Shown here: piece by piece, positions 1 through 29,365 of the stretch
Numbering within the stretch: position 1 is the stretch's first letter
Layout: every line of letters begins with the position of its first letter
Assembly (NCBI RefSeq): GCF_028283685.1
Contig: NZ_JAPWKF010000001.1
Span: 558,001-622,000 of the forward strand
DNA: 64,000 nt
From: Edaphobacter sp.
Lineage (GTDB): Bacteria; Acidobacteriota; Terriglobia; Terriglobales; Acidobacteriaceae
Reading direction: 5' to 3'
Notes under the pieces: generated by a model
Seen by the model: only the letters and a program-made list of their open reading frames with translations
What the model was told of the DNA's origin: nothing
The model's database searches: none
Translations under genes and position numbers: made by a program

Positions 1-1899
1 GCATGGACGTCTTCGCCCTCGGCATTCAGAACCGTGGCTCCTCAGCCGTCATCGCGCCCAACATCCCCGCACAGCTCTCTCCCGACAACCTCGCTCATCT
101 CGACTGCGAACAGTGCGGCATGTGCATCGATGCCTGCCCGGTCGGCGCGCTGACCTCCGGCACCTACCGCTACAAGACCCGTCCGTGGGAGATGAACCAC
201 GTCTCAACCATCTGCACGCACTGCGGCGATGGCTGCAAGACGACCCTCGGCGTCCGCTCCACCTCAGACGGCGCGGAGATCGTTCGCGGCGACAACCGCG
301 ACAAGAGCGGCATCAATGGCGACTTCCTCTGCAACAAGGGCCGCTACGCCTTCGACTTCGCCAACAGCCCCGAGCGCATCACCTCGCCGATGATCCGGCA
401 GGCCGATGGCAGCCTCAAGGAAGTCTCCTGGGAAGAGGCCTTCACCTTCACCGGCAAAAAGCTGCGCGAGCTGCGTGACACCCGCGGTGGCAGCTCTATC
501 GGCGTTCTCGGCGGAAACCGCCTGACCAACGAAGAGGCATACCTGCTGCAGAAGTTCGCACGCACGGTCCTCGGCACCAACAACATCGATCATCACCGCA
601 CGGCAGACTACGTCACCTTCGCCCAGGCTCTCGCCGGTCAGAAGGGGCGCACCGCCTCGTGGCGCGACACGCAGAACTTCCCTGCTGTCCTGATCAGTAG
701 GTGGCGATCCCACCAACCAGGCTCCCGGAACCGCGTGGAACCTTCGCTCCGATGTCCGCCTCAACAAGGCGAAGCTTTACATCGCCAACACTGACGAGAT
801 CAAGCTTCGCCGTCAGGCCAAGGCATTCCTGCAGGTGGCTCCGTTCGGTTACGGCGCTCTCGCCGGTTACCTCGCGGGTGATTCTGCCTCCGCGGCGGGT
901 GCAGCAAACGATCCCTCCGCCCTCGGCGCCTTCACCGAAGCCGTCAAGGCAGAGGAAAAGCTCCTGATCCTCATCGGCTCCGAGCTTCGCGGCGCGGATC
1001 TGAAGCGCCTCATCGAATTCGGCCTGACGATTCCGGGAGCGAAGTTCGCCCTGCTCTCCGACTACGTCAACTCGCGCGGAGCAGCCGACATGGGCCTCTT
1101 GCCCGACATGCTTCCCGGCTACGTTCCGGTTGCGCAGCCCGGCCCCTTCGCAGAGTTCAACGCACCGGCCACCGCAGGCCTCGACATGCTCGAGATCTTC
1201 GACGCCGCCGCCGCGGGCAAGCTCTCGGCGCTCTACATCGTCAATGCGAATCCGGTCGGACGCTATGGCGTCGATCCGGCAGCGCTCAAGGATACCTTCG
1301 TCGTCGCGCAGGAGATGTTCCTGACCGAGACGGCAAAGCTTGCTGACGTGATTCTTCCCGCCGCCAATCTTTATGAGAAGGCAGGATCGGTCACCAACAG
1401 CTACGGTGACCTGCAGCTTGTCGCCAAAGCCGGCGACCGCGCCGGTGTCCGCACCGACTTTGAGATGATCGTTCGCGTCGCCGACAAGATGGGGGCCGAC
1501 GTCAAGGCGCTGGTTCCCTTCGGCAAGGGTCTTCGCGCCGACATGGGTCAGAGCCGCGGCGCTCAGTCCGGCGAGGCCGACCGTCACGCCGTCTGGCTCA
1601 CCGCCAACAACCTCGAGCCCAAGCTCTCGCCCTTCGATCCCTTCGCGATCCTGGATGAGATTCATCGCCTCGTACCGGGCTACAACCTGCTTCGGCTCCA
1701 GCTGATCAGCGGCAACGACCAGCACCTAGAGCCTGCGGCACCGCTCGTACAGATCACGAACCGCCGCGACCTGGTTCTGCCCTCCGGCGACACGCTCTTC
1801 ACCTCGGGGACTCTGGGCCGCTTCTCGCCCAACCTGAACGACGTCAAGCAGTACCAGACCAGCGAGCAGTTGGTTCGCATCCAGACCGCAGCCGACTAG
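1..1899 (+). CDS. nuoG: NADH-quinone oxidoreductase subunit G, 5' truncated, frameshifted
   Basis: This is the Fe-S and molybdopterin-fold subunit of the peripheral arm of complex I, carrying electrons from NADH toward quinone. The gene enters from before the window. Visible first is a ferredoxin-type cluster motif (CEQCGMCIDACP), then the oxidoreductase 4Fe-4S motif (CTHCGDGC) and a DFLCNKGRYAFDF segment. The protein is then read in frame 3 to about position 693 and in frame 1 from about 697 (GGDPTNQAPGTAWNLRSD) to the stop at 1897-1899. One extra base near 693-697 breaks the frame; both halves are good NuoG sequence. nuoH starts 17 bases downstream. The lesion is either a real mutation or a sequence error; nuoL and nuoN carry the same kind of lesion. 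Confidence 0.92.
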
Positions 1900-1916
1900 G
1901 AGACGAGAGCAAACAC

Positions 1917-2978
1917 GTGAGTCATCTGACTGATTTCCAGACATTCTTTCTGCTCTCGATCTTGAAGATCGTCGTCGTGCTCGTCATTACGCTGACGGCG
2001 GTGGCCTACACCGTTCTGCTCGAGCGCAAGGTCCTCGGTCGCATGCAGAACCGCTGGGGCCCCTCCCGCGTCGGTCCCTTCGGCCTGCTGCAGCCCCTCG
2101 CCGACGGTATCAAACTCTTCCTCAAGGAAGACCTGATGCCGCTTGCCACCGAGCGGCCGCTCTTCATCTTCGCGCCGATCATCGCGCTCACCTGCGCTCT
2201 GATCTCGATCGCCGTCGTTCCCTTCGGTGCAGTCACCCACATCGCTGGCGTCGATATGTTCGCCATCTCCGATATCAACATCGGTCTGCTGGTCATCCTC
2301 GGCATCACGTCAATCGGCGTCTACGGTATCGCGCTCTCCGGCTGGTCGTCGAACAACAAGTTCGCTCTCCTCGGCTCCCTGCGTGCTACCTCGCAGGTCA
2401 TCAGCTACGAGCTTGCCCTCGGACTTTCGCTGGTCGGCGTCGTCCTTCGCGCCGGTTCGCTTCGCCTCCGCGATATCGTCGACAGCCAGGCAGCGCACGG
2501 CGCACTCTCCTGGAACCTCTTCGGAGGCTTCCAGTTCATCGCCTTCTTCATCTACCTGATGGCGGCCTACGCCGAGACCAACCGCGCTCCCTTCGACCTT
2601 CCCGAGGCCGAGTCCGAGCTGGTCGCCGGCTATCACACGGAATACTCTTCGATGAAGTTCGCGATGTTCTTCATGGCTGAGTACGCCAACATGATCACCG
2701 TTGCCTGCGTCGCGACCCTCATGTTCCTGGGTGGAGCGACCAGCCCGCTGGGCAATCTCCTCCCTGCTAATTTCGGCGGACCGATCCTCTCAGCGATCTT
2801 CCCCGTGCTCTGGTTCGTCGCCAAGGTCTTCGCGTTTCTCCTGCTTTACATCTGGGTCCGCGCGACGCTTCCCCGATTCCGCTACGACCAGCTCATGGCC
2901 TTCGGCTGGAAGTTCTTGCTTCCCGTCGCCATCCTCAACATCATTGCCACCAGCCTCGTCCTTGCCCTGCGCGGATGA
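1917..2978 (+). CDS. nuoH: NADH-quinone oxidoreductase subunit H
   Basis: NuoH is the membrane subunit of complex I that holds much of the quinone chamber, at the junction of the hydrophilic arm and the proton-pumping arm. The 353-residue protein is of normal length and is mostly membrane helices. It carries the family signatures ERKVLGRMQNRWGPSRVGPFG near the N-terminus and ETNRAPFDLPEAESELVAGY in the middle. The start is the GTG at 1917 (reads MSHLTDFQ), shortly after the nuoG stop. The frame is intact, unlike its neighbour nuoG. The next gene is nuoJ, not nuoI as in the usual operon order; a small hairpin lies in the gap. Confidence 0.97.
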   Translation: MSHLTDFQTFFLLSILKIVVVLVITLTAVAYTVLLERKVLGRMQNRWGPSRVGPFGLLQPLADGIKLFLKEDLMPLATERPLFIFAPIIALTCALISIAVVPFGAVTHIAGVDMFAISDINIGLLVILGITSIGVYGIALSGWSSNNKFALLGSLRATSQVISYELALGLSLVGVVLRAGSLRLRDIVDSQAAHGALSWNLFGGFQFIAFFIYLMAAYAETNRAPFDLPEAESELVAGYHTEYSSMKFAMFFMAEYANMITVACVATLMFLGGATSPLGNLLPANFGGPILSAIFPVLWFVAKVFAFLLLYIWVRATLPRFRYDQLMAFGWKFLLPVAILNIIATSLVLALRG

Positions 2979-2985
2979 GCCCAGA

Positions 2986-3013
2986 GCTACCTGCTTTACA
3001 ATCAACAGGTAGC
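2986..3013 (+). promoter_or_regulatory. Hairpin in the nuoH-nuoJ gap
   Basis: A perfect 8-bp inverted repeat (GCTACCTG / CAGGTAGC) with a 12-base loop sits 7 bases after the nuoH stop, in the place where nuoI normally lies. No T-run follows, so it is unlikely to be a strong terminator. It may be an mRNA processing or stability element, or a scar from loss of a gene. Confidence 0.4.
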
Positions 3014-3072
3014 CCACAACAATTTAGCCCTGATTCAAGCGATTCACACTAAGAACGAATCCGCGGAGCATC

Positions 3073-3579
3073 ATGCAACTCGCATTGTTCATCATCTTTG
3101 GTTTGCTCGCCGTCGCCGGAGCGATTAACTTCCTGCTGCAGCGGCACCCCATCAACTCGGCGCTCTCGCTCGTCGTCGTGATGATGTCGCTGGCCGTCCT
3201 CTACTGGTCGCTTGGGGCTGAATTCCTCGCCGCGGCACAGGTCATCGTCTACTCCGGCGCCGTGATGGTTCTATTCGTCTTTGTCGTCATGCTCCTCAAC
3301 GCGGGCGAGGAAGAGCGAACCCACGGCAGCAAGGCCGCATACGCCGTCGGCTTCCCCGGCGCCGCCGCCATCTTCTGCCTGCTCAGCTTTGTCTTCCTCT
3401 CCAACGGCAAGAGCTTCGGTGTCACCGATCTCGGCAACCACCTGACCCACGCCGCCAACAACATCGCCGAGATCTCTCAGGTTCTGTTCCGCGACCTCCT
3501 GCTTCCCTTCGAGTCCACCAGCATTCTCATCCTCGTCGCTATCCTCGGAGCCGTCGTGCTCGCCCGAAAGGAGCACTAG
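3073..3579 (+). CDS. nuoJ: NADH-quinone oxidoreductase subunit J
   Basis: NuoJ is a small membrane subunit of complex I next to NuoH and NuoK; its bulged third helix takes part in coupling electron transfer to proton movement. The 168-residue protein shows five hydrophobic segments and the typical central stretch AAAQVIVYSGAVMVLFVFVV. The ATG at 3073 gives the normal N-terminus (MQLALFIIFGLLAVAGAINF). nuoK follows after 6 bases, indicating tight co-transcription. The frame is intact and the length is usual for the family. Confidence 0.96.
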   Translation: MQLALFIIFGLLAVAGAINFLLQRHPINSALSLVVVMMSLAVLYWSLGAEFLAAAQVIVYSGAVMVLFVFVVMLLNAGEEERTHGSKAAYAVGFPGAAAIFCLLSFVFLSNGKSFGVTDLGNHLTHAANNIAEISQVLFRDLLLPFESTSILILVAILGAVVLARKEH

Positions 3580-3585
3580 ACTACG

Positions 3586-3897
3586 ATGTCCGCAGCCGTT
3601 CCCATCTCCTGGTACCTGGTTCTCGCCGCGATCCTCTTCTCCGTCGGCATCGCCAGCTTCCTGATCAAACGCAACATCATCACCATCTTCATGTCGATTG
3701 AGCTCATGCTCAATGCCGTCAATCTGACCTTCGTCGCCTTCGCCCACATGTGGCACCAGATCACCGGTCAGATCTTCGTCTTCTTTGTCATGGTCGTCGC
3801 CGCCGCCGAGGCCGCCGTCGGTCTCGCCATCATTATCGCCATCTATCGCACGCGCCAGACCCTCAACGTCGACCAGGTCAACCTGCTCAAGAATTAA
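3586..3897 (+). CDS. nuoK: NADH-quinone oxidoreductase subunit K
   Basis: NuoK is a small antiporter-related (MrpC-like) membrane subunit of complex I with conserved buried glutamates. The 103-residue sequence has three membrane helices and the family signatures [19 protein letters not shown] and [18 protein letters not shown], both containing the expected Glu residues. It sits 6 bases after nuoJ and 17 bases before the nuoL start. The frame is intact. Confidence 0.97.
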
Positions 3898-3914
3898 GGA
3901 CACGAGAGACCCAG

Positions 3915-5898
3915 ATGCCCGCCTCCTATCTATGGCTGATTCCGCTGCTTCCCTTCGCGGGATTCCTGATTCAATGGAACCCTGGGCCGCCGCCTGCCCC
4001 GCGCACTCGTCTCCGCCGTCGCCCTGATCCCCACGGCCATTTCAGCCCTGCTCTGGATGTGGCTCTGGGCCACCATCAAGGCTCCCGGCGCGCCTGAGTC
4101 CATTCACTCCACCATCACGCTGTTCGGAAACAGCTGGATCTCGGTCTCCGGCTTCCACGCCGACTTCGCCTTTACCGTCGACCATCTGACCGCCATCATG
4201 CTCGGCGTCGTTACCTGCGTCGGCTTCCTCATCCATCTCTATTCCGTCGGCTACATGGCACACGAAGAGGGCTATTGGCGCTTCTTCGCCTACCTGAACC
4301 TGTTCATGTTCTTCATGCTGGTCCTGGTGCTCTCCGCCAACTTCCTTCTGCTCTTCGTCGGCTGGGAGGGCGTCGGTCTCGCCTCGTACCTGCTGATCGG
4401 CTTCTACTTCAAGAAGGACTCCGCTGCCAACGCAGGCAAAAAAGCCTTCATCGTCAACCGCATCGGCGACTTCGGCTTCCTCCTCGCGATGTTCCTGATG
4501 ATCTCCCACTTCGGATCACTCGACTTCGCCACGGTCTTCTCCGCGGTGTCCGCTCATCCTGAATGGCACGGTGGCTTCCTCACCGCCATCGCTCTGCTGC
4601 TCGTTGTAGGCGCCACGGGTAAATCAGCTCAGATTCCACTCTACGTCTGGCTGCCTGACGCTATGGAAGGCCCAACCCCGGTCTCCGCACTCATCCACGC
4701 CGCCACCATGGTCACAGCGGGCATCTACATGGTCGCGCGCTCCCACGTCATCTTCGACCGCTCGCCCTACGCCCTCGGCGTCGTCGCCATCATCGGTGCT
4801 GCGACTGCCTTCTTCGCGGCCTGCATCGGCATGGTGCAGCACGACATCAAGCGCGTCCTGGCCTACTCCACCGTCTCGCAGCTCGGCTACATGTTCCTGG
4901 CCTGCGGCGTCGGGGCCTACACGGCTGGTATCTTCCACCTGTTGACGCATGCCTTCTTCAAGGCTCTGCTCTTCCTCGCCGCTGGCTCCGTGATTCACGC
5001 GCTCTCGGGCGAGCAGGACATGCGTAAGATGGGCGGCCTGCGCAAGCGTATCCCCGTCACCTTCTGGACGATGACGATGGGCGTCTTCGCCATCGCCGGG
5101 CTTCCTCCCCTCGCAGGCTTTTTCTCAAAAGACGAGATCCTCTTCCAGGCCTTCGTCTCTCCGAATCCGATCGGCAAGCTGCTCTGGCTCGTTGGACTGA
5201 TCACAGCCGGAATGACCTCGTTCTACATGTTCCGCCTGTGGTTCAAGACCTTCTTCGGTGAAGAGCGCTTCGAAGAGCACACCGATCATGGCCACGGACA
5301 CGATGACCATCACGGCCACGGCGTACATGAATCGCCCCTGGTCATGACGCTGCCGCTGATGGTTCTTGCACTGCTCTCCATCATCGGCGGCTGGGTTGGC
5401 GTTCCCGCGGCACTTGGCGGACACGACGAGATCGGTGCCTTCCTCGAGCCGGTCCTCTCACCAGCCGTCACCGTGACCGAGGTCGTCAGCCACTCCACCG
5501 AGCTCGGCCTTGCAGCCGTCTCGGTTCTCGTAGCGCTGCTTGGCCTCTTCATCGCCTACGCGCTCTACTACAAGAAGCCAGGCACGGCTGCCTCCTACGC
5601 ACAGAAGTTCCCCGCCCTCTACCGCCTCGTCGACAATAAGTTCTATGTGGACGAGATCTACCAGGGCGTCATCGTGACTCCTCTGCTGATGTTCTCGCGC
5701 CTCATTCTCGGCACCATCTTCGATGGCGGCGTGGTTGGCGGTGCGGGTTATGCGGCTGGAGCCTCCACGCGCGGTCTGGGATCGCTGGTACGCCGTATTC
5801 AGTCCGGAAACATTCGTTCTTACGCAGGATGGCTCGCTCTCGGCGCCGCTGCCGTCATCGCCGTCATGATCTTCGGCCATTCACTCTGGTTGCACTAA
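3915..5898 (+). CDS. nuoL: NADH-quinone oxidoreductase subunit L, frameshifted near its start
   Basis: NuoL is the distal antiporter-like proton-pumping subunit of complex I with the long lateral helix. The start at 3915 reads MPASYLWLIPLLPFAGFLI; after position 3971 one extra base (the C at 3972) breaks the frame, and the true continuation NGTLGRRLPRALVSAVALIP runs in another frame to the stop at 5898. Rejoined, the product would be about 660 residues, normal for NuoL. Family signatures include GWEGVGLASYLLIGFY, a KSAQIPLYVWLPDAMEGPTP stretch with the conserved Lys, and KALLFLAAGSVIH. A His-rich loop (around 5278-5330) lies between late helices. As read, translation would stop early. Confidence 0.94.
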
Positions 5899-5922
5899 AA
5901 CGACAGGAAACCGACGAACTCG

Positions 5923-7509
5923 ATGAACCTCGACCACAACATCCTGACGATCATCACCTTCACTCCCCTTGTTGGAGCCATCGTCCTTGCCCTGCTGCCT
6001 GATCGGGACAAGCTCCAGCAGTGGGGAGCTCTCGCCGTCACGCTACTGACCTTCCTCTTCACGCTGCATCTGCCCTTTCACTACAACTCCGCGGTTCCCG
6101 CCGGAAGCTTCCAGTTCGAGCAGAGCTGCCCCTGGATCACCTCGCCCGCCATCGGCTATCACCTTGGCGTGGATGGGCTCTCCATGTGGTTCGTCGTGCT
6201 CACCGGCCTTCTGGCGCCGCTTGGCGTGCTCATCTCCTGGCGTGCCATCGACAGCCGCCGCCGCCTCTTCTACGTTCTCTTCCTGCTGCAGCAGGTCGCA
6301 ATGCTTGGCATCTTCGTCTCGCTCGACCTCTTCCTCTACTACGCCTACTGGGAGCTCTCCCTGGTCCCCATGGCGTTGCTGATCGCAGCCTTCGGCCGGA
6401 CGGAGAACCGCCGCCGCGCCGCCATCAAGTTTTTCCTCTACGCTTTCATCCCTTCAGCCATCCTGCTGGTCGCTGTGCTCTGGCTCTACGCGCGTACCGG
6501 CACCTTCGACTATCCGCGTCTCGCAGAGCTTGCCGTCTCGCACGGCATCTCATCGAACCCGACCGCACTCTGGCTCGCATCGCTTGCTTTCCTGGCCGCC
6601 TTCGCCGTCAAGGTTCCAATCTTCCCGCTGCATGGCTGGCTGGCGGACGCTGTCTCCGAAGCTCCCACCGCTGCCGTCATGGTTATCGCCGGCAAGCTGG
6701 GCCTCTACTCCCTGCTGCGCTTCTACCTCGGCATCTTCCCCGGACAGGCTCACCGTATCGCGCCGCTGATGATCGCACTCGGCGCCATCGGCATCGTCTA
6801 CGGAGCGCTGCTCGCCCTCGTCCAAAAGGACCTCAAGCGCCTCGCGGCCTTCGGTACTCTCGGGCACGTCTCTGTCGTCATCCTCGGCATCTTCGCCTTC
6901 ACCGTCTCCGGCATCGACGGCGGCATCTACCAGACGCTCAACGAAGGCATCGGCGGCTCGGCGCTCTTTATGCTCCTCGGCCTGCTCTACGAGCGCTACC
7001 GCACCTACGATATGCGCGAATACGGCGGTCTGGCAGCTCGTCTGCCCTGGGTCGTCACCATGTTCGTCCTCACGGCGCTCTCCGTCACCGGCCTTCCACT
7101 GCTGAATGGCTTCGTCGGTGAGTTCCTCGTTCTCTCCGGTTCCATGCAGTCGACGATCTCGCACCACATCGGATGGACGACACTCGCCACCACCGGAGTC
7201 ATCCTCACCGCCTCCTATATGCTCTGGATGATCCAGCGCGTCTTCTACGGCGATCTCGGACCGCGCTCCGAATCCATCACGGCCCCCGACCTCGAACTGC
7301 GCGAGCATCTCGCTCTCTGGCCCCTGGTGGCTCTCTTCCTCTTCATGGGCGTAGCCTCCCCGGTCTTTATGAATGTCATCGACACCGCAGGCACGAAGAT
7401 CGCCGAAAGAGTTAATCACATTCAGGCAGTCAACATGAACTTTGACGCATCGGCTAAGCCCGCAGCAACGACACAGACCATGACCGCTTCGACGAAAGGA
7501 GCTCGCTAG
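5923..7509 (+). CDS. nuoM: NADH-quinone oxidoreductase subunit M
   Basis: NuoM is one of the three antiporter-like proton-pumping membrane subunits of complex I. The 528-residue protein has about 14 hydrophobic segments. It shows WELSLVPMALLIAAFG with the key Glu, and AFAVKVPIFPLHGWLADAVS with the conserved Lys before the LPDA-like motif. The ATG at 5923 gives MNLDHNILTIITFTPLVGA. The stop at 7507-7509 directly abuts the nuoN ATG at 7510, suggesting translational coupling. The frame is intact along its whole length. Confidence 0.97.
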   Translation: MNLDHNILTIITFTPLVGAIVLALLPDRDKLQQWGALAVTLLTFLFTLHLPFHYNSAVPAGSFQFEQSCPWITSPAIGYHLGVDGLSMWFVVLTGLLAPLGVLISWRAIDSRRRLFYVLFLLQQVAMLGIFVSLDLFLYYAYWELSLVPMALLIAAFGRTENRRRAAIKFFLYAFIPSAILLVAVLWLYARTGTFDYPRLAELAVSHGISSNPTALWLASLAFLAAFAVKVPIFPLHGWLADAVSEAPTAAVMVIAGKLGLYSLLRFYLGIFPGQAHRIAPLMIALGAIGIVYGALLALVQKDLKRLAAFGTLGHVSVVILGIFAFTVSGIDGGIYQTLNEGIGGSALFMLLGLLYERYRTYDMREYGGLAARLPWVVTMFVLTALSVTGLPLLNGFVGEFLVLSGSMQSTISHHIGWTTLATTGVILTASYMLWMIQRVFYGDLGPRSESITAPDLELREHLALWPLVALFLFMGVASPVFMNVIDTAGTKIAERVNHIQAVNMNFDASAKPAATTQTMTASTKGAR

Positions 7510-9019
7510 ATGTCTCCCAACGTCCTCGCTCTTCTGCCTGAGTACATCCTCACCATCACCGGCGTCCTCGTAATGCTGGGTGATCCCCTGATTCCGGCTC
7601 AGCAGAACCGCAAGTCGCTCGGCCTCCTCGCCATCCTTGGCACCATCGCCGCAGGCTTCGCCAGCTGGTACCAGCTCGGCTTCGGTACCATCCATGCGTT
7701 CTTCGGCACCATCCAGGCCGACTCGTTCTCCGTCTTCTTTCATCTGCTCATCTGCGCCGTCGTCCTCATCACGCTTCTCAGCTCGCTGGACTACTTCCAG
7801 GGTCACGCCAACGTCGCGGGTGAGTACTATGCCCTCGTGCTCTTCGGCGCAACGGGCATGATGCTGATGACCTGCTCGGTTGAGCTGTTGATGGTCTTCG
7901 TCGGCCTTGAGATCTCCTCGATTTCGAGCTACATCATGGCTGGCTTCCGCAAGGGCAAGGCCGCCACCAGCCGAGTCCTCGATCAAGTACTTCCTGCTCG
8001 GCTCCTTCGCCACGGCTTTCTTCCTGTATGGCATCGCCCTCGCCTTCGGTGCAACCGGCTCCACACGTATCGATATCCTCTCGCAGGGACTCGCGACCAC
8101 AGCGACACCGATGCTCGCCTTGCTGGCGCTAGCGATGATCGTCATCGGCATCGGCTTCAAGGTCTCCGCGGCTCCCTTCCACGTCTGGACCCCCGACGTC
8201 TACCAGGGAGCTCCCGCTCCTGTTGTTGGCCTGATGTCCACCGCGCCCAAAGCCGCAGCGTTCGCCGTTCTTCTGCGTGTCCTCTTCTCCGGCTTTCCCT
8301 CGTACGAGCCGCGCTGGGCTGGCCTCATCTGGATCATCGCCGTCCTCTCCATGTTCACCGGCAACCTCGGCGCCCTGATGCAGCGCGACGTCAAGCGCAT
8401 GCTCGCCTACTCCTCGATCGCGCATGCCGGTTACCTCCTCGTCGCCTTTACCGCGTTCCCAGCCGATGGCATCGCCTCGGCCTGCTTCTACACCGCAGCC
8501 TACGCAGCCATGAACGTCGGTGCCTTCACCGTCATCACGCAGCTCTCCGGCTACGACGAGAACGCTCGCACCATCGACGACTACGCCGGCCTCGCGCTCA
8601 AGCGTCCCGTCCTCACCGCGCTGCTCGGATTCTTCCTCCTCTCGCTGATCGGAATCCCCTTCACCGGCGGCTTCTTCGGCAAGTTCTATGTCTTCTCGGC
8701 AGCGCTGCACGCGGGCAACGTCTGGCTTGCATTATTTGGCCTGCTCAACAGCGGCATCGCCTGCTTCTACTACCTTCGCCTCCTGGCCGCAATGTACAGC
8801 CGCCCCGCAACCGACACCGGACACATCAAGGTGAGTGCTCCGGTGTCCATCCCGGCGGCCATCGCGCTCACCTTCACAGCTGTCGCCACACTGCTGCTCG
8901 GTATCGCTCCGAACCGCGTTCTGGCGCTGGCCCGCAGTGGAGCCGAGGTCACCATGAAGGCGATCCCTGCATCTTCGCTGCAGCAGACCACAGCCGATAC
9001 CAGCCGCCTGCCTCGTTAG
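7510..9019 (+). CDS. nuoN: NADH-quinone oxidoreductase subunit N, frameshifted
   Basis: NuoN is the third antiporter-like proton-pumping subunit of complex I. The 5' part ([20 protein letters not shown] to KGKAATS) is read from 7510 to about 7971. One extra C at 7971/7972 then breaks the frame, and the natural continuation [20 protein letters not shown] runs in another frame to the stop at 9017-9019. Rejoined, the length is about 502 residues, usual for NuoN. Signatures include [16 protein letters not shown] and [20 protein letters not shown]. The out-of-frame reading continues open to 9048 and would give an arginine-rich, non-membrane tail. This is the last gene of the operon; its stop codon lies inside a terminator hairpin. 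Confidence 0.93.
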
Positions 9020-9030
9020 GCGGCTGTTTT
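9001..9030 (+). terminator. Intrinsic terminator overlapping the nuoN stop codon
   Basis: A perfect 9-bp GC-rich stem (CAGCCGCCT / AGGCGGCTG) with an 8-base loop is followed by TTTT. The nuoN TAG lies at the loop/3'-arm junction, so the hairpin is built partly from coding sequence. It ends the nuo operon before the tRNA gene. Confidence 0.8.
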
Positions 9031-9044
9031 CCTCAACCGTACGT

Positions 9045-9073
9045 TTGATCTGATTCCAAAGATCATGTATTCT
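9045..9073 (+). promoter_or_regulatory. Sigma-70 type promoter of tRNA-Arg
   Basis: TTGATC (9045-9050) and TATTCT (9068-9073) are separated by exactly 17 bases and end 25 bases before the mature tRNA. The hexamers match the sigma-70 consensus at most positions and lie just after the nuo terminator. Confidence 0.55.
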
Positions 9074-9098
9074 TATCTAGTTGCAGTCAACGCAATGT

Positions 9099-9175
9099 GC
9101 GCCCGTAGCTCAGCTGGATAGAGCAACTGGCTACGAACCAGTAGGTCGGGTGTTCGAATCACTCCGGGCGCACCA
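9099..9175 (+). tRNA. tRNA-Arg (anticodon ACG)
   Basis: The sequence folds as a full cloverleaf. The acceptor stem GCGCCCG pairs with CGGGCGC, the anticodon stem ACTGG/CCAGT encloses the loop CTACGAA (anticodon ACG), and the T-loop is TTCGAAT. The discriminator base A and an encoded CCA (9173-9175) follow. ACG is read as ICG after A34 deamination and decodes CGU, CGC and CGA. Confidence 0.97.
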
Positions 9176-9261
9176 TCCCTCCCCCAGCAAATCAAATCCC
9201 TTCAATCTGCTACTCACAGAACACGCCTCGAAATGATTGCGCGTATAACGGCCTTTCCCGA

Positions 9262-9290
9262 TTGACGACCAATTTAGTCCTCAATAGACT
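9262..9290 (+). promoter_or_regulatory. Candidate promoter of the iron-uptake operon
   Basis: TTGACG (9262-9267) and TAGACT (9285-9290) are spaced by 17 bases, about 100 bases upstream of the FTR1 start. A short dyad (TAGTC, 7 bases, GACTA) overlaps the -10 box and could be an operator, but I cannot assign it to Fur or another iron regulator. Confidence 0.5.
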
Positions 9291-9388
9291 AGAATGCAGG
9301 ACAGGTCGACTTCGACGCCATGCTTTGATCAAGGGTGACCAGCAGGCGGTTCGTCGCGTATCGCGGCCCTGAGGAAGAGAAACACCTT

Positions 9389-10663
9389 ATGCTGCAGGCA
9401 TTTATCATTACCCTCCGCGAGGGCGTGGAAGCTTCGCTGATCGTTGGCATCATCTTCGCCTATCTGGTTAAGATCGGCCGCGAAGAGCTCAAGAAAATCG
9501 TCTTCTGGGCCATCGCAGCCGCTGTGGGCTGCAGCGTCGCCGGGGCCATCGTTCTGGCCCATCTCGAACTCAATACCGACATCTTTGAGGGCTGGGTCAT
9601 GCTCGCCGCAGCCGTCTTCGTCATCAGCATGATCTGGTTCATGCATAAGACGGCCCGCACCATGCGCGGCGATATCGAAGAAAAAGTCTCGCAGTACACC
9701 AGCGAAAAGGGCGTTTCGACGACCGGCCTCTTCTTCTTCGTCTTCCTCATGGTGCTGCGCGAAGGCGTCGAGACGGTTCTGATTCTCTCTGCCGTCACGC
9801 TCAACTCCACTGAGCTGCTAAGCTTCACCGGAACCGTCCTCGGCATCGCCGTCGCCGTCGTCTTCGGTGTTCTCTTTGTCCGTGGCAGTGTCAAGATCAA
9901 TCTTCAGCGCTTCTTCCGCGTCACCACCGTCATCCTCTACTTCGTGGCCTTCCAGCTCATCGTCAGCGGCCTGCACGAGCTGAGCGAAAACGGCGCCCTT
10001 CCCTCCAGCAAAGCGGAGATGCGCCTGATCGGCCCCATCGTCCGCAACGACCTCTTCTTCTTCGTTACGATGCTTGCCCTCGCCGGCCTGATGATTCTGA
10101 TGGAATACCGTCGGCGCGCTCCCGTTCAGCTCGCCTCCGATGCCACCCCGGCAGACCGCCGCCGCATCGAGTGGACCCAGCGCCGCGAGAAGCTCTGGAT
10201 GAACGCTGTCGTCATCACCAGCTTCCTGTTCATCTTCCTCTCCACCGCCGAGTTCATCTACGCCAAGAGCACCACGGCTCTCTCGCCCACCACCGCCGTC
10301 ACACTCGTTGGCTCCGAGGTCACCGTCCCCGCATCCGAGATCAACGACGACCAGCTCCACCGCTTCGGCGTCCACGTCGAAGATGGCAAGGGCGGCAGCA
10401 CCGAGGTTCGCTTCCTGCTCTTCAAGAAGCCGGACGGCAACATCGTCGCCGTCGGCGATGCCTGCCGCATCTGCGGTCCCGTAGGCTTCTACATTGGCGA
10501 TCAGGGCATCACCTGCAAGATGTGCGCCTCTCCCCTCAACGCCGGCTCCATGGGCCAGGAGGGCGGCTGCAATCCCATCCCGCTGAAGAGCGCTGTCACC
10601 GCAGGTCAGGTCACCATCCAGGCCGACGCTCTGCGCTCTCTCATCCCGATCTTCCAGCAATAA
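9389..10663 (+). CDS. FTR1-family high-affinity iron permease fused to a DUF2318 domain
   Basis: This inner-membrane iron permease has 424 residues from the ATG at 9389, which has a GAGGAAGAGA ribosome site 8 bases upstream. Residues 1 to about 240 form the FTR1 domain, with two iron-binding REGVE motifs (residues 10-14 and 124-128) in membrane helices. One more helix (about 271-290) leads to a C-terminal DUF2318 domain (about 300-424) with Cys pairs C359-x2-C362 and C376-x2-C379 and the motif GGCNPIP at 392-398, typical of a metal- or Fe-S-binding periplasmic domain. In Campylobacter-type P19/FetM systems these two parts are separate proteins. Two permeases and an ATPase follow in one operon. 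Iron rather than another metal is inferred from the family. Confidence 0.88.
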   Translation: MLQAFIITLREGVEASLIVGIIFAYLVKIGREELKKIVFWAIAAAVGCSVAGAIVLAHLELNTDIFEGWVMLAAAVFVISMIWFMHKTARTMRGDIEEKVSQYTSEKGVSTTGLFFFVFLMVLREGVETVLILSAVTLNSTELLSFTGTVLGIAVAVVFGVLFVRGSVKINLQRFFRVTTVILYFVAFQLIVSGLHELSENGALPSSKAEMRLIGPIVRNDLFFFVTMLALAGLMILMEYRRRAPVQLASDATPADRRRIEWTQRREKLWMNAVVITSFLFIFLSTAEFIYAKSTTALSPTTAVTLVGSEVTVPASEINDDQLHRFGVHVEDGKGGSTEVRFLLFKKPDGNIVAVGDACRICGPVGFYIGDQGITCKMCASPLNAGSMGQEGGCNPIPLKSAVTAGQVTIQADALRSLIPIFQQ

Positions 10664-10681
10664 GGACACAAGGCACGCATC

Positions 10682-12007
10682 ATGTTCCTTCGGCTTTTGA
10701 TTGAGAGTTTTCGGCGGCAGCGGAGACGCAAGATCCTCGCCGGCATCGCCATACTTCTCGGCACAACAGCCGTAACCGCGATGCTCGCCCTGGCGACCAC
10801 CATCGGCGACCGCATTCAAGATGAGCTGGCCGTCTACGGAGCTAACATCGTTGTCACTCCCGCGGCAGAGCAGCTAGACGTCCAAGTCGGTGGCATCGAC
10901 GTGCGTCCCGACTCCGGCGGAGCCACCCTCAAGGAATCAGATCTCAAGAAGCTTCGCGGCATCTTCTGGGCCAACAACATCACCGGCGTCTCTCCTCAAC
11001 TGCCCGTCCACATCCTCGGAACCACCTCAGAAGGCGAGACACTCGACGTTGCGGCCACCGGCCTCTGGTTTCGTCACTCCCTCTCCAACGGCGGCCCAGC
11101 CATCGTCACCGGAGCTCCCGCGCTGCATCCTCTCTGGAAGCTGACCGGTGAATGGCCGAAAGAGACTTCCCCTACAGCCAACAGCGCTGATGCCGTCATT
11201 GGCAGTGCGCTGGCGACGAGCAAAGGCATCCACACAGGCGATACGATTCAACTGACGCCGTCCCCTCAAAATCCCGGCGCTCTCCACAGCCTTCACGTGA
11301 CCGGCATCGTCGCCACGGGAGATACCGTCGACAATCAGATTCTCTTGCCGCTCTCCACCGCGCAAAGCATCGCCGGAACGCCGGATGCCGTCAAGCGCGT
11401 CGAGGTCTCCGCCCGCACCAAGCCCGAAGACTCCTTCGCCCGCAAAGACCCCGATTCCCTCTCCGCCAAGCAGAAGGAGATCTGGTACTGCCGTCCCTAC
11501 GCCAACTCCATCGCCTATCAGATTCGTGAAGCCATCCCCGGAGCCCGCGCCGAGCAGATCCGCCGCGTGGAACAAAGCCAGGGCACCGTTCTCAGCCGCA
11601 TCAGCGGCCTCATGTGGCTCATCAGTGCAGCAGCCATGCTCGCCGCGGCCTTCGCCGTCAGCGCCGCCATGGCGACCGCCATCCTCGAACGGCAGGTAGA
11701 GATCGGCCTGATGCGCTCACTCGGCGCCAGCAAGACCTCCATCGCACTGCTCTTCTATACCGAGTCCGGCCTGCTGGCCTTCATCACAGGAGCCATCGGC
11801 TACATTATCGGCTCAGGGGTCGCCGCATGGGTTGGCATTAAGATCTTTGGGGCATCGGCAACCCCTGCCCTGACGGACATCCTCAACCCCGTTCTGCTGC
11901 CCGTCATCGTCAGCCTGTCGCTTCTTATCGCAATCGCAGGCAGTACACCCGCCATTCGCAGGGCACTCTCCATGGAACCGTCCTCGATCCTCCGGACGGG
12001 CGCATGA
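10682..12007 (+). CDS. ABC transporter permease, MacB/FtsX-like, iron system
   Basis: The 441-residue protein has one N-terminal membrane helix (around residues 20-40), a large periplasmic MacB-type core, and three C-terminal helices with the FtsX-like stretch LERQVEIGLMRSLGASKTSIALLFYTES. It starts 18 bases after the FTR1-DUF2318 gene and overlaps the next permease by 4 bases (ATGA). Homologous permeases accompany FTR1/P19 iron systems, where they are thought to work on the periplasmic side of iron uptake rather than as classic importers. The pairing with the next gene suggests a heterodimer. Confidence 0.85.
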   Translation: MFLRLLIESFRRQRRRKILAGIAILLGTTAVTAMLALATTIGDRIQDELAVYGANIVVTPAAEQLDVQVGGIDVRPDSGGATLKESDLKKLRGIFWANNITGVSPQLPVHILGTTSEGETLDVAATGLWFRHSLSNGGPAIVTGAPALHPLWKLTGEWPKETSPTANSADAVIGSALATSKGIHTGDTIQLTPSPQNPGALHSLHVTGIVATGDTVDNQILLPLSTAQSIAGTPDAVKRVEVSARTKPEDSFARKDPDSLSAKQKEIWYCRPYANSIAYQIREAIPGARAEQIRRVEQSQGTVLSRISGLMWLISAAAMLAAAFAVSAAMATAILERQVEIGLMRSLGASKTSIALLFYTESGLLAFITGAIGYIIGSGVAAWVGIKIFGASATPALTDILNPVLLPVIVSLSLLIAIAGSTPAIRRALSMEPSSILRTGA

Positions 12008-28227: not shown

Positions 28228-29365
28228 CTACAACTCGTCGTCCGCCGCCTCGGCCGCTGGAATACCACCCTCACGGCGAGCCCGCAGGTAGCCACGGATA
28301 AACGGCTCCAGGTCGCCATCCAGCACGCGATCCACGTCGCCGATCTCCACCCGCGTGCGCAGGTCCTTCACCATCCGGTAAGGCTGCATCACGTAGCTGC
28401 GAATCTGCGAACCGAACTTGATGTCGAGCTTCGAGTCTTCCAGCTTCTTACTGACAGCCTTCTTCTTCTCCAGCTCATATTCGTAGAGGCGCGAACGCAG
28501 CAGCTTCATCGCCTTCTCTTTGTTTTTGTGCTGCGACCGCTCGTTCTGGCAGCCCGCCACCAGTCCGGTCGGAAGATGCGTAATACGCACCGCAGAGTCC
28601 GTCGTATTCACATGCTGACCGCCCTTACCACCCGAGCGGTACGTATCGATCCGGAGATCCTCCGGCTTGATGTCGATCACGATGGTATCGTCGATCTCCG
28701 GCGACACATACACCGAAGCGAAGCTCGTATGACGCCGCTTGGCCGAATCGAACGGCGAGATGCGCACCAGCCGGTGCACGCCGGTCTCACCCGACAGCAG
28801 GCCATAGGCAAACTCGCCCGAGATGGTGAACGTCGCCGACTTGATCCCGGCCTCATCCCCATCCTGAATTTCGTTGATCTCCACCTTGAAGCTCTGTCGC
28901 TCGCCCCAGCGCACGTACATGCGCATCAGCATCTCTGCCCAGTCCTGCGACTCCGTACCACCCGCGCCAGGATGCACGACGACAACCGCGTTCAGAGGAT
29001 CGCTCTCCTCCGACAGCATCGTCTTCGACTCCAGCTTCTCGGCAAAATCCACCAGCGCCGGAATCTCCCGCGCCAGCTCGGCCTCCGTATCCTCGCCCTC
29101 GCGGGCAAGCTCGAAGTAGGCCTCGATATCATCGGTCCGTCGCGCCAGCTCCGTGTCATCCGCCAGCAGGTTCTCCACCCGCTTACGATCGCGCATCAGC
29201 GGCTGCGAACGCGCGGGATCGGCCCACACGGAAGGATCGGAGGTCTTCTCTTCGATAACGGCTAGTTCACGACGAAGGCGGGGCGCGTCAAAGATACTCC
29301 CGCAGATCGCGAATCTTTTCGCGCACCGGGGAGTACGTGTATTCCAGGTCACTCAGCATAGCCAT
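28228..29365 (-). CDS. prfB: Peptide chain release factor 2, with programmed +1 frameshift
   Basis: RF2 terminates translation at UGA and UAA. The gene begins at ATG 29365 (or 29359) with [20 protein letters not shown], meets an in-frame TGA at 29290-29288, and continues in the +1 frame ([20 protein letters not shown]) to 28228. The slippery site CTTTGAC and an upstream purine-rich CGGGAG match the classic RF2 autoregulatory frameshift. The GGQ peptide-release motif ([17 protein letters not shown]) is intact. The anticodon-like tripeptide region fits RF2. Annotated as a simple open frame, the gene would lose about 25 N-terminal residues. The ATG overlaps the lnt stop (TAATG). Confidence 0.95.
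29287..29293 (-). promoter_or_regulatory. prfB programmed +1 frameshift site
   Basis: On the minus strand the site reads CTTTGAC, with TGA as the in-frame stop after codon 25 (counting from 29365). TAT precedes CTT as in E. coli, and a Shine-Dalgarno-like CGGGAG lies 3 bases before CTT. When RF2 is scarce, ribosomes slip +1 and make full-length RF2. Confidence 0.93.

Follow-up and report, generated by a model that had tools for sequence, protein, structure and literature searches.

The ordinary nuo operon of Edaphobacter and its relatives, which encodes respiratory complex I, has the gene order nuoG-H-J-K-L-M-N. The operon studied here has the same order, all of its genes match their families, and same-genus loci are strongly similar to it. 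It differs from the ordinary operon only by three extra bases, one each in nuoG, nuoL and nuoN. Indels that fragment genes in long-read assemblies are described in the Kastor paper (PMC12007338), mostly in homopolymers, with some insertions lying outside them. Those errors resemble the present case in that single-base indels interrupt a large number of genes in a contiguous assembly, which then appears less complete. They are largely tied to homopolymers, whereas the candidates described here are mostly +1 and lie outside homopolymers longer than 3.

The analysis is based on a window of 64,000 bases (G000:C9:558001-622000) from a genome of 4,787,281 bases in 10 contigs, with a completeness of 93.5%. 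We find that the three extra bases very probably arose by error in sequencing or assembly, and that the nuo operon of this Edaphobacter-like acidobacterium is otherwise normal and unique. The best named matches of its NuoM protein are from Acidobacteriaceae, including Edaphobacter and Granulicella.

Extra bases in nuoG, nuoL and nuoN

The first 9 kb of the window contain nuoG, nuoH, nuoJ, nuoK, nuoL, nuoM and nuoN, all on the forward strand. The start of nuoG lies upstream of the window, as placed by tblastn. Its part before the break (3-692) matches positions 180-341 of the 606 positions of the NuoG profile TIGR01973, and its part after the break (700-1899) matches positions 370-594. In nuoL, a pre-break part of 18 codons (3915-3968), delimited by tblastn against relatives and by the frame model described below, precedes a long post-break part (3976-5898) that matches positions 23-612 of the 615 in PRK06590. 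The two parts of nuoN (7510-7968 and 7976-9019) match positions 2-149 and 156-471 of the 472 in TIGR01770. Both pieces of nuoG and of nuoN lie in order on their profiles. As originally predicted, nuoH (1917-2978), nuoJ (3073-3579), nuoK (3586-3897) and nuoM (5923-7509) are intact, with open frames and family matches.

The original prediction that each of the three broken genes holds exactly one extra base was confirmed by comparing the gene's own pieces with related loci, by tblastn and by the frame model. Between the pieces there are 7 bases in the window (693-699 in nuoG, 3969-3975 in nuoL and 7969-7975 in nuoN). In all scorable related loci there are 6, that is two codons, within one open frame (45/45 loci for nuoG, 50/50 for nuoL and 55/55 for nuoN). 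The placement set comprised 56 of 78 fetched related nuo loci, the other 22, mostly from other phyla, being left out; the gene pieces were absent or partial at 11 loci for nuoG, 6 for nuoL and 1 for nuoN. Searches by tblastn with the open reading frames (ORFs) of seven same-genus genomes placed the same +1 sites in 7/7 cases for each gene, after numerous frame changes in ORFs that overlap or run antisense had been discounted. A frame-switch model that relies on codon statistics rather than homology also flags all three genes, with weak support (4) on the short 5′ side of nuoL. No long homopolymer is present at any of the sites, the longest run within 8 bases being 2 or 3, again as predicted.

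The remainder of the window had been predicted to contain no frame break other than the programmed one in prfB. This holds insofar as the model flags only four further switches (11942, 16208, 21849 and 63807), each an ordinary 4-base gene overlap. The prfB break itself was not flagged by the model, which performs poorly at breaks close to gene ends. The motif CTTTGAC occurs near the 5′ end of a minus-strand ORF at 28228-29352, which is a candidate for that prfB.

Several other features of the operon and its surroundings were observed. The starting frame of nuoN stays open past the break for 512 codons (7510-9048), nearly to the end of the gene, and automatic annotation of this interval would yield one long, partly meaningless ORF that masks the truncation of nuoN. 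A tRNA-Arg gene (anticodon ACG) lies immediately 3′ of nuoN at 9099-9175; an RNA family search of window positions 1-12000 found no RNA family other than this one tRNA. Directly upstream of nuoG, three ORFs of relatives (428, 194 and 441 residues) each find their match within one frame, the 428-residue match being nuoD (PF00346). nuoI is absent between nuoH and nuoJ (window 2979-3072). The sole NuoI match above the cut-off is at G000:C9:684823-685221 (L217), approximately 118 kb farther along the contig and on the opposite strand.

Copy number and constraint of the complex I genes

One reading put forward in the original prediction was that the lesions mark the decay of a dispensable second copy of complex I. 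A profile search of the genome found no second nuoL, nuoM or nuoN set and no second nuoD. There are three matches to PF00361, all in nuoL, nuoM and nuoN of this operon, and one match to PF00346. Several same-genus genomes carry a second NuoM-like gene cluster, approximately 32-38% identical to this NuoM (for example G010 C74, G017 C8 and C26, and G015 C25), and the genome of the window is without such a cluster.

We compared dN between the operon's own pieces and eight relatives with the mean dN within that set of relatives, using five pieces of the broken genes (all except the 18-codon start of nuoL). Mean dN is 0.082 for the 5′ piece of nuoG (relatives 0.096), 0.129 for its 3′ piece (0.131), 0.094 for the 3′ piece of nuoL (0.109), and 0.143 and 0.139 for the 5′ and 3′ pieces of nuoN (0.124 and 0.131). 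For the intact genes the values are 0.067 for nuoH (0.090), 0.087 for nuoJ (0.078), 0.056 for nuoK (0.052) and 0.134 for nuoM (0.127). The 5′ piece of nuoN is slightly above the relatives, with one of eight values (0.226) outside their range; the intact nuoJ and nuoM likewise slightly exceed the ranges of the relatives. Against these eight relatives, the pieces of nuoG, nuoL and nuoN show no clear rise in dN of the kind expected from relaxed constraint. Broken and intact nuo genes are alike in dN, and thus there is no sign of long-standing decay, although the result is compatible with a very recent loss of complex I. With one nuoL/M/N set, one nuoD and no clear loss of constraint in the pieces, decay of a redundant copy is not borne out.

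Frame breaks in the rest of the genome

The frame-switch hidden Markov model, trained jointly on the first part of the genome sample and of the control set, was applied to 25% of the genome including the window (1,215,383 bases) and to 760,000 control bases drawn from seven relatives. Candidates exclude blocks of <50 bases and any switch that an ordinary gene overlap accounts for. The genome sample contains 29 candidate breaks (22 +1 and 7 -1) and the controls 9 (4 +1 and 5 -1). Some of the 29 are thus background, given the 9 found in 0.76 Mb of controls. The +1 rate is 18.1/Mb, compared with 5.3/Mb in the controls, whereas the -1 rate is 5.8/Mb compared with 6.6/Mb. Requiring support of ≥20 on each side leaves 9 +1 and 3 -1 candidates in the genome, compared with 0 and 1 in the controls. 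The excess over related assemblies is therefore confined to insertions, and -1 breaks show none. Within 8 bases of each of the 22 +1 candidates, the longest homopolymer is 2 or 3 (mean 2.32, compared with 2.49 at randomly chosen coding positions). Enrichment of 4-mers and 5-mers at these candidates does not go beyond that expected from multiple testing (lowest p 0.025 among 136 tests and 0.005 among 512), the break positions being known only to within several bases. A motif linked to recoding or modification was rejected on this ground.

Family models were applied to 20 of the 26 candidates outside nuo; those left out were position 74037 of the window contig, L038, L079, L083 at 2277, L088 and L095. 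Nine of the 20, all of them +1, match a single family, or consecutive domains of a single enzyme, whose order is kept from one side of the break to the other. These are ClpB (profile positions 1-544, then 548-852), IF-2 (2-479, then 481-581), CtaD (4-77, then 80-491), DusB (16-83, then 86-304), ProS (catalytic and editing domains, then the anticodon domain), a lysylphosphatidylglycerol synthase (4-123, then 155-302), a short-chain dehydrogenase (1-140, then 144-194), a 3-keto-disaccharide hydrolase (1-54, then 56-187) and a Cupin_5 protein (5-94, then 102-137). The remaining 11 show no single family in order on both sides, and some of them may be separate genes. Seven of them match on one side only (L043, L073, L107 at 16975, L040, L050, L046, and RuvA at L107 5330, for which the 5′ piece alone was scanned), the two sides of L076 and of L077 belong to different families, and L083 at 990 has no family on either side. 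At L042 (10778-11894), a FAD-dependent oxidoreductase (DAO), the upstream block matches profile positions 291-348 and the downstream block 2-288, in reversed order; the locus may hold a permuted protein or two adjacent genes, and a +1 break may separate the blocks. Pfam was applied to five of the nine control candidates, and none of the five has one family on both sides. One control, L126, matches an aminotransferase profile over positions 4-306 of 361, followed by 37 unmatched residues, and may be a true late break.

Two of the nine family-supported breaks lie in genes that cells are expected to need. IF-2 (infB) has one locus in the genome, and it is split at C1:315487/315489. Among 40 other same-genus genomes, 39 have an infB match, and in 38 of these the break position is spanned in one frame; the match in G050 stops short of that position, and G018 has no match. 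The prolyl-tRNA synthetase gene (proS) is also present at one locus, divided between two frames near 31,000 on C9; its other matches in the genome are weaker and partial. A living cell with both infB and proS broken is not expected, which makes sequence error the likely cause. The completeness of the genome (93.5% in 10 contigs, compared with 96-100% in 17 listed same-genus genomes with ≤20 contigs) fits this cause.

To judge the cluster of three, we considered a range of break rates. The nine homology-confirmed breaks outside nuo correspond to 7.4/Mb in the sample, a minimum given that breaks near gene ends escape the model. At 18.1/Mb, the raw +1 rate serves as an upper figure, as the controls also give 5.3/Mb. 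The simulated chance of any triple within 7.28 kb genome-wide is 0.05, 0.11, 0.27 and 0.46 at 7.4, 10, 14 and 18 breaks/Mb. For the whole genome the triple is thus mildly unusual to ordinary, and at the homology-confirmed rate it falls on the unlikely side (probability 0.05). These simulations are genome-wide, and the triple would be much rarer for any single randomly chosen window. Zero further unexplained breaks in the remaining 55 kb of the window is expected, because the rates predict 0.4 to 1.

Origin of the extra bases

The nuo breaks are most likely not a biological feature. The same kind of extra base also splits genes that a cell is expected to require, which argues for errors rather than a decaying operon. 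In the explanation that we favor, the assembly is long in its contigs but under-corrected, and single-base errors, mostly insertions outside long homopolymers, occur roughly once in every 55-135 kb. By chance, or with a local contribution such as reduced read depth, three such insertions landed within 7.3 kb. Older, incompletely corrected single-molecule reads typically carry random insertions outside homopolymers. We infer that the reads came from an insertion-prone single-molecule platform and would presumably lack support for the extra bases.

The alternatives have to account both for the cluster and for the breaks elsewhere. A real and recent loss of complex I, in which three +1 mutations inactivated nuoG, nuoL and nuoN before other substitutions gathered, would agree with the presence of all three lesions in one operon, and the unrelaxed dN is compatible with a very recent inactivation. 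However, a single mutation would suffice to lose the complex, and this scenario leaves the like breaks in clpB, infB, proS, ctaD and other genes unexplained, infB and proS being single-copy and expected to be needed. We therefore regard it as highly improbable. The same breaks weigh on the idea of a purely local assembly fault at nuo in an otherwise clean genome, for example from very low depth or a strain mixture. Such a fault would suit the grouping of three breaks in 7.3 kb and the lack of further unexplained breaks in the window, but same-sign candidates occur on other contigs and nine of them are family-supported, so that a fault restricted to nuo is very unlikely. Lower local depth may nevertheless have acted on top of genome-wide errors, and could contribute to the cluster.

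It is also conceivable that the extra bases are genuine and tolerated. Programmed +1 frameshifting at the three sites would yield full-length NuoG, NuoL and NuoN, in keeping with the clean resumption of the frame on both sides and with constraint like that of relatives. Yet none of the scorable related loci carries the shift, and the 22 +1 candidates share no 4-mer or 5-mer that survives multiple testing, which makes this reading extremely unlikely. We give almost no credence to a lineage that tolerates many real +1 insertions, including those in infB and proS, by means of exceptionally efficient +1 translational recoding.

We return to sequencing or assembly error as the best explanation. The original prediction had offered locally poor assembly as the alternative to decay, and had named lesions scattered equally through other parts of the genome as an outcome that would refute it. 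Such lesions were found, as same-sign breaks on other contigs that include infB and proS. Of the two interpretations first offered, poor assembly is therefore the one that stands, as a genome-wide condition rather than a fault of this locus.

Single frame breaks in this genome are thus a poor basis for concluding that genes, such as those of respiratory complex I, have been lost. Pseudogene or missing-function calls made on this assembly need a check against the reads first, and the breaks in nuoG, nuoL and nuoN would gain biological significance only if the reads confirm the extra bases.
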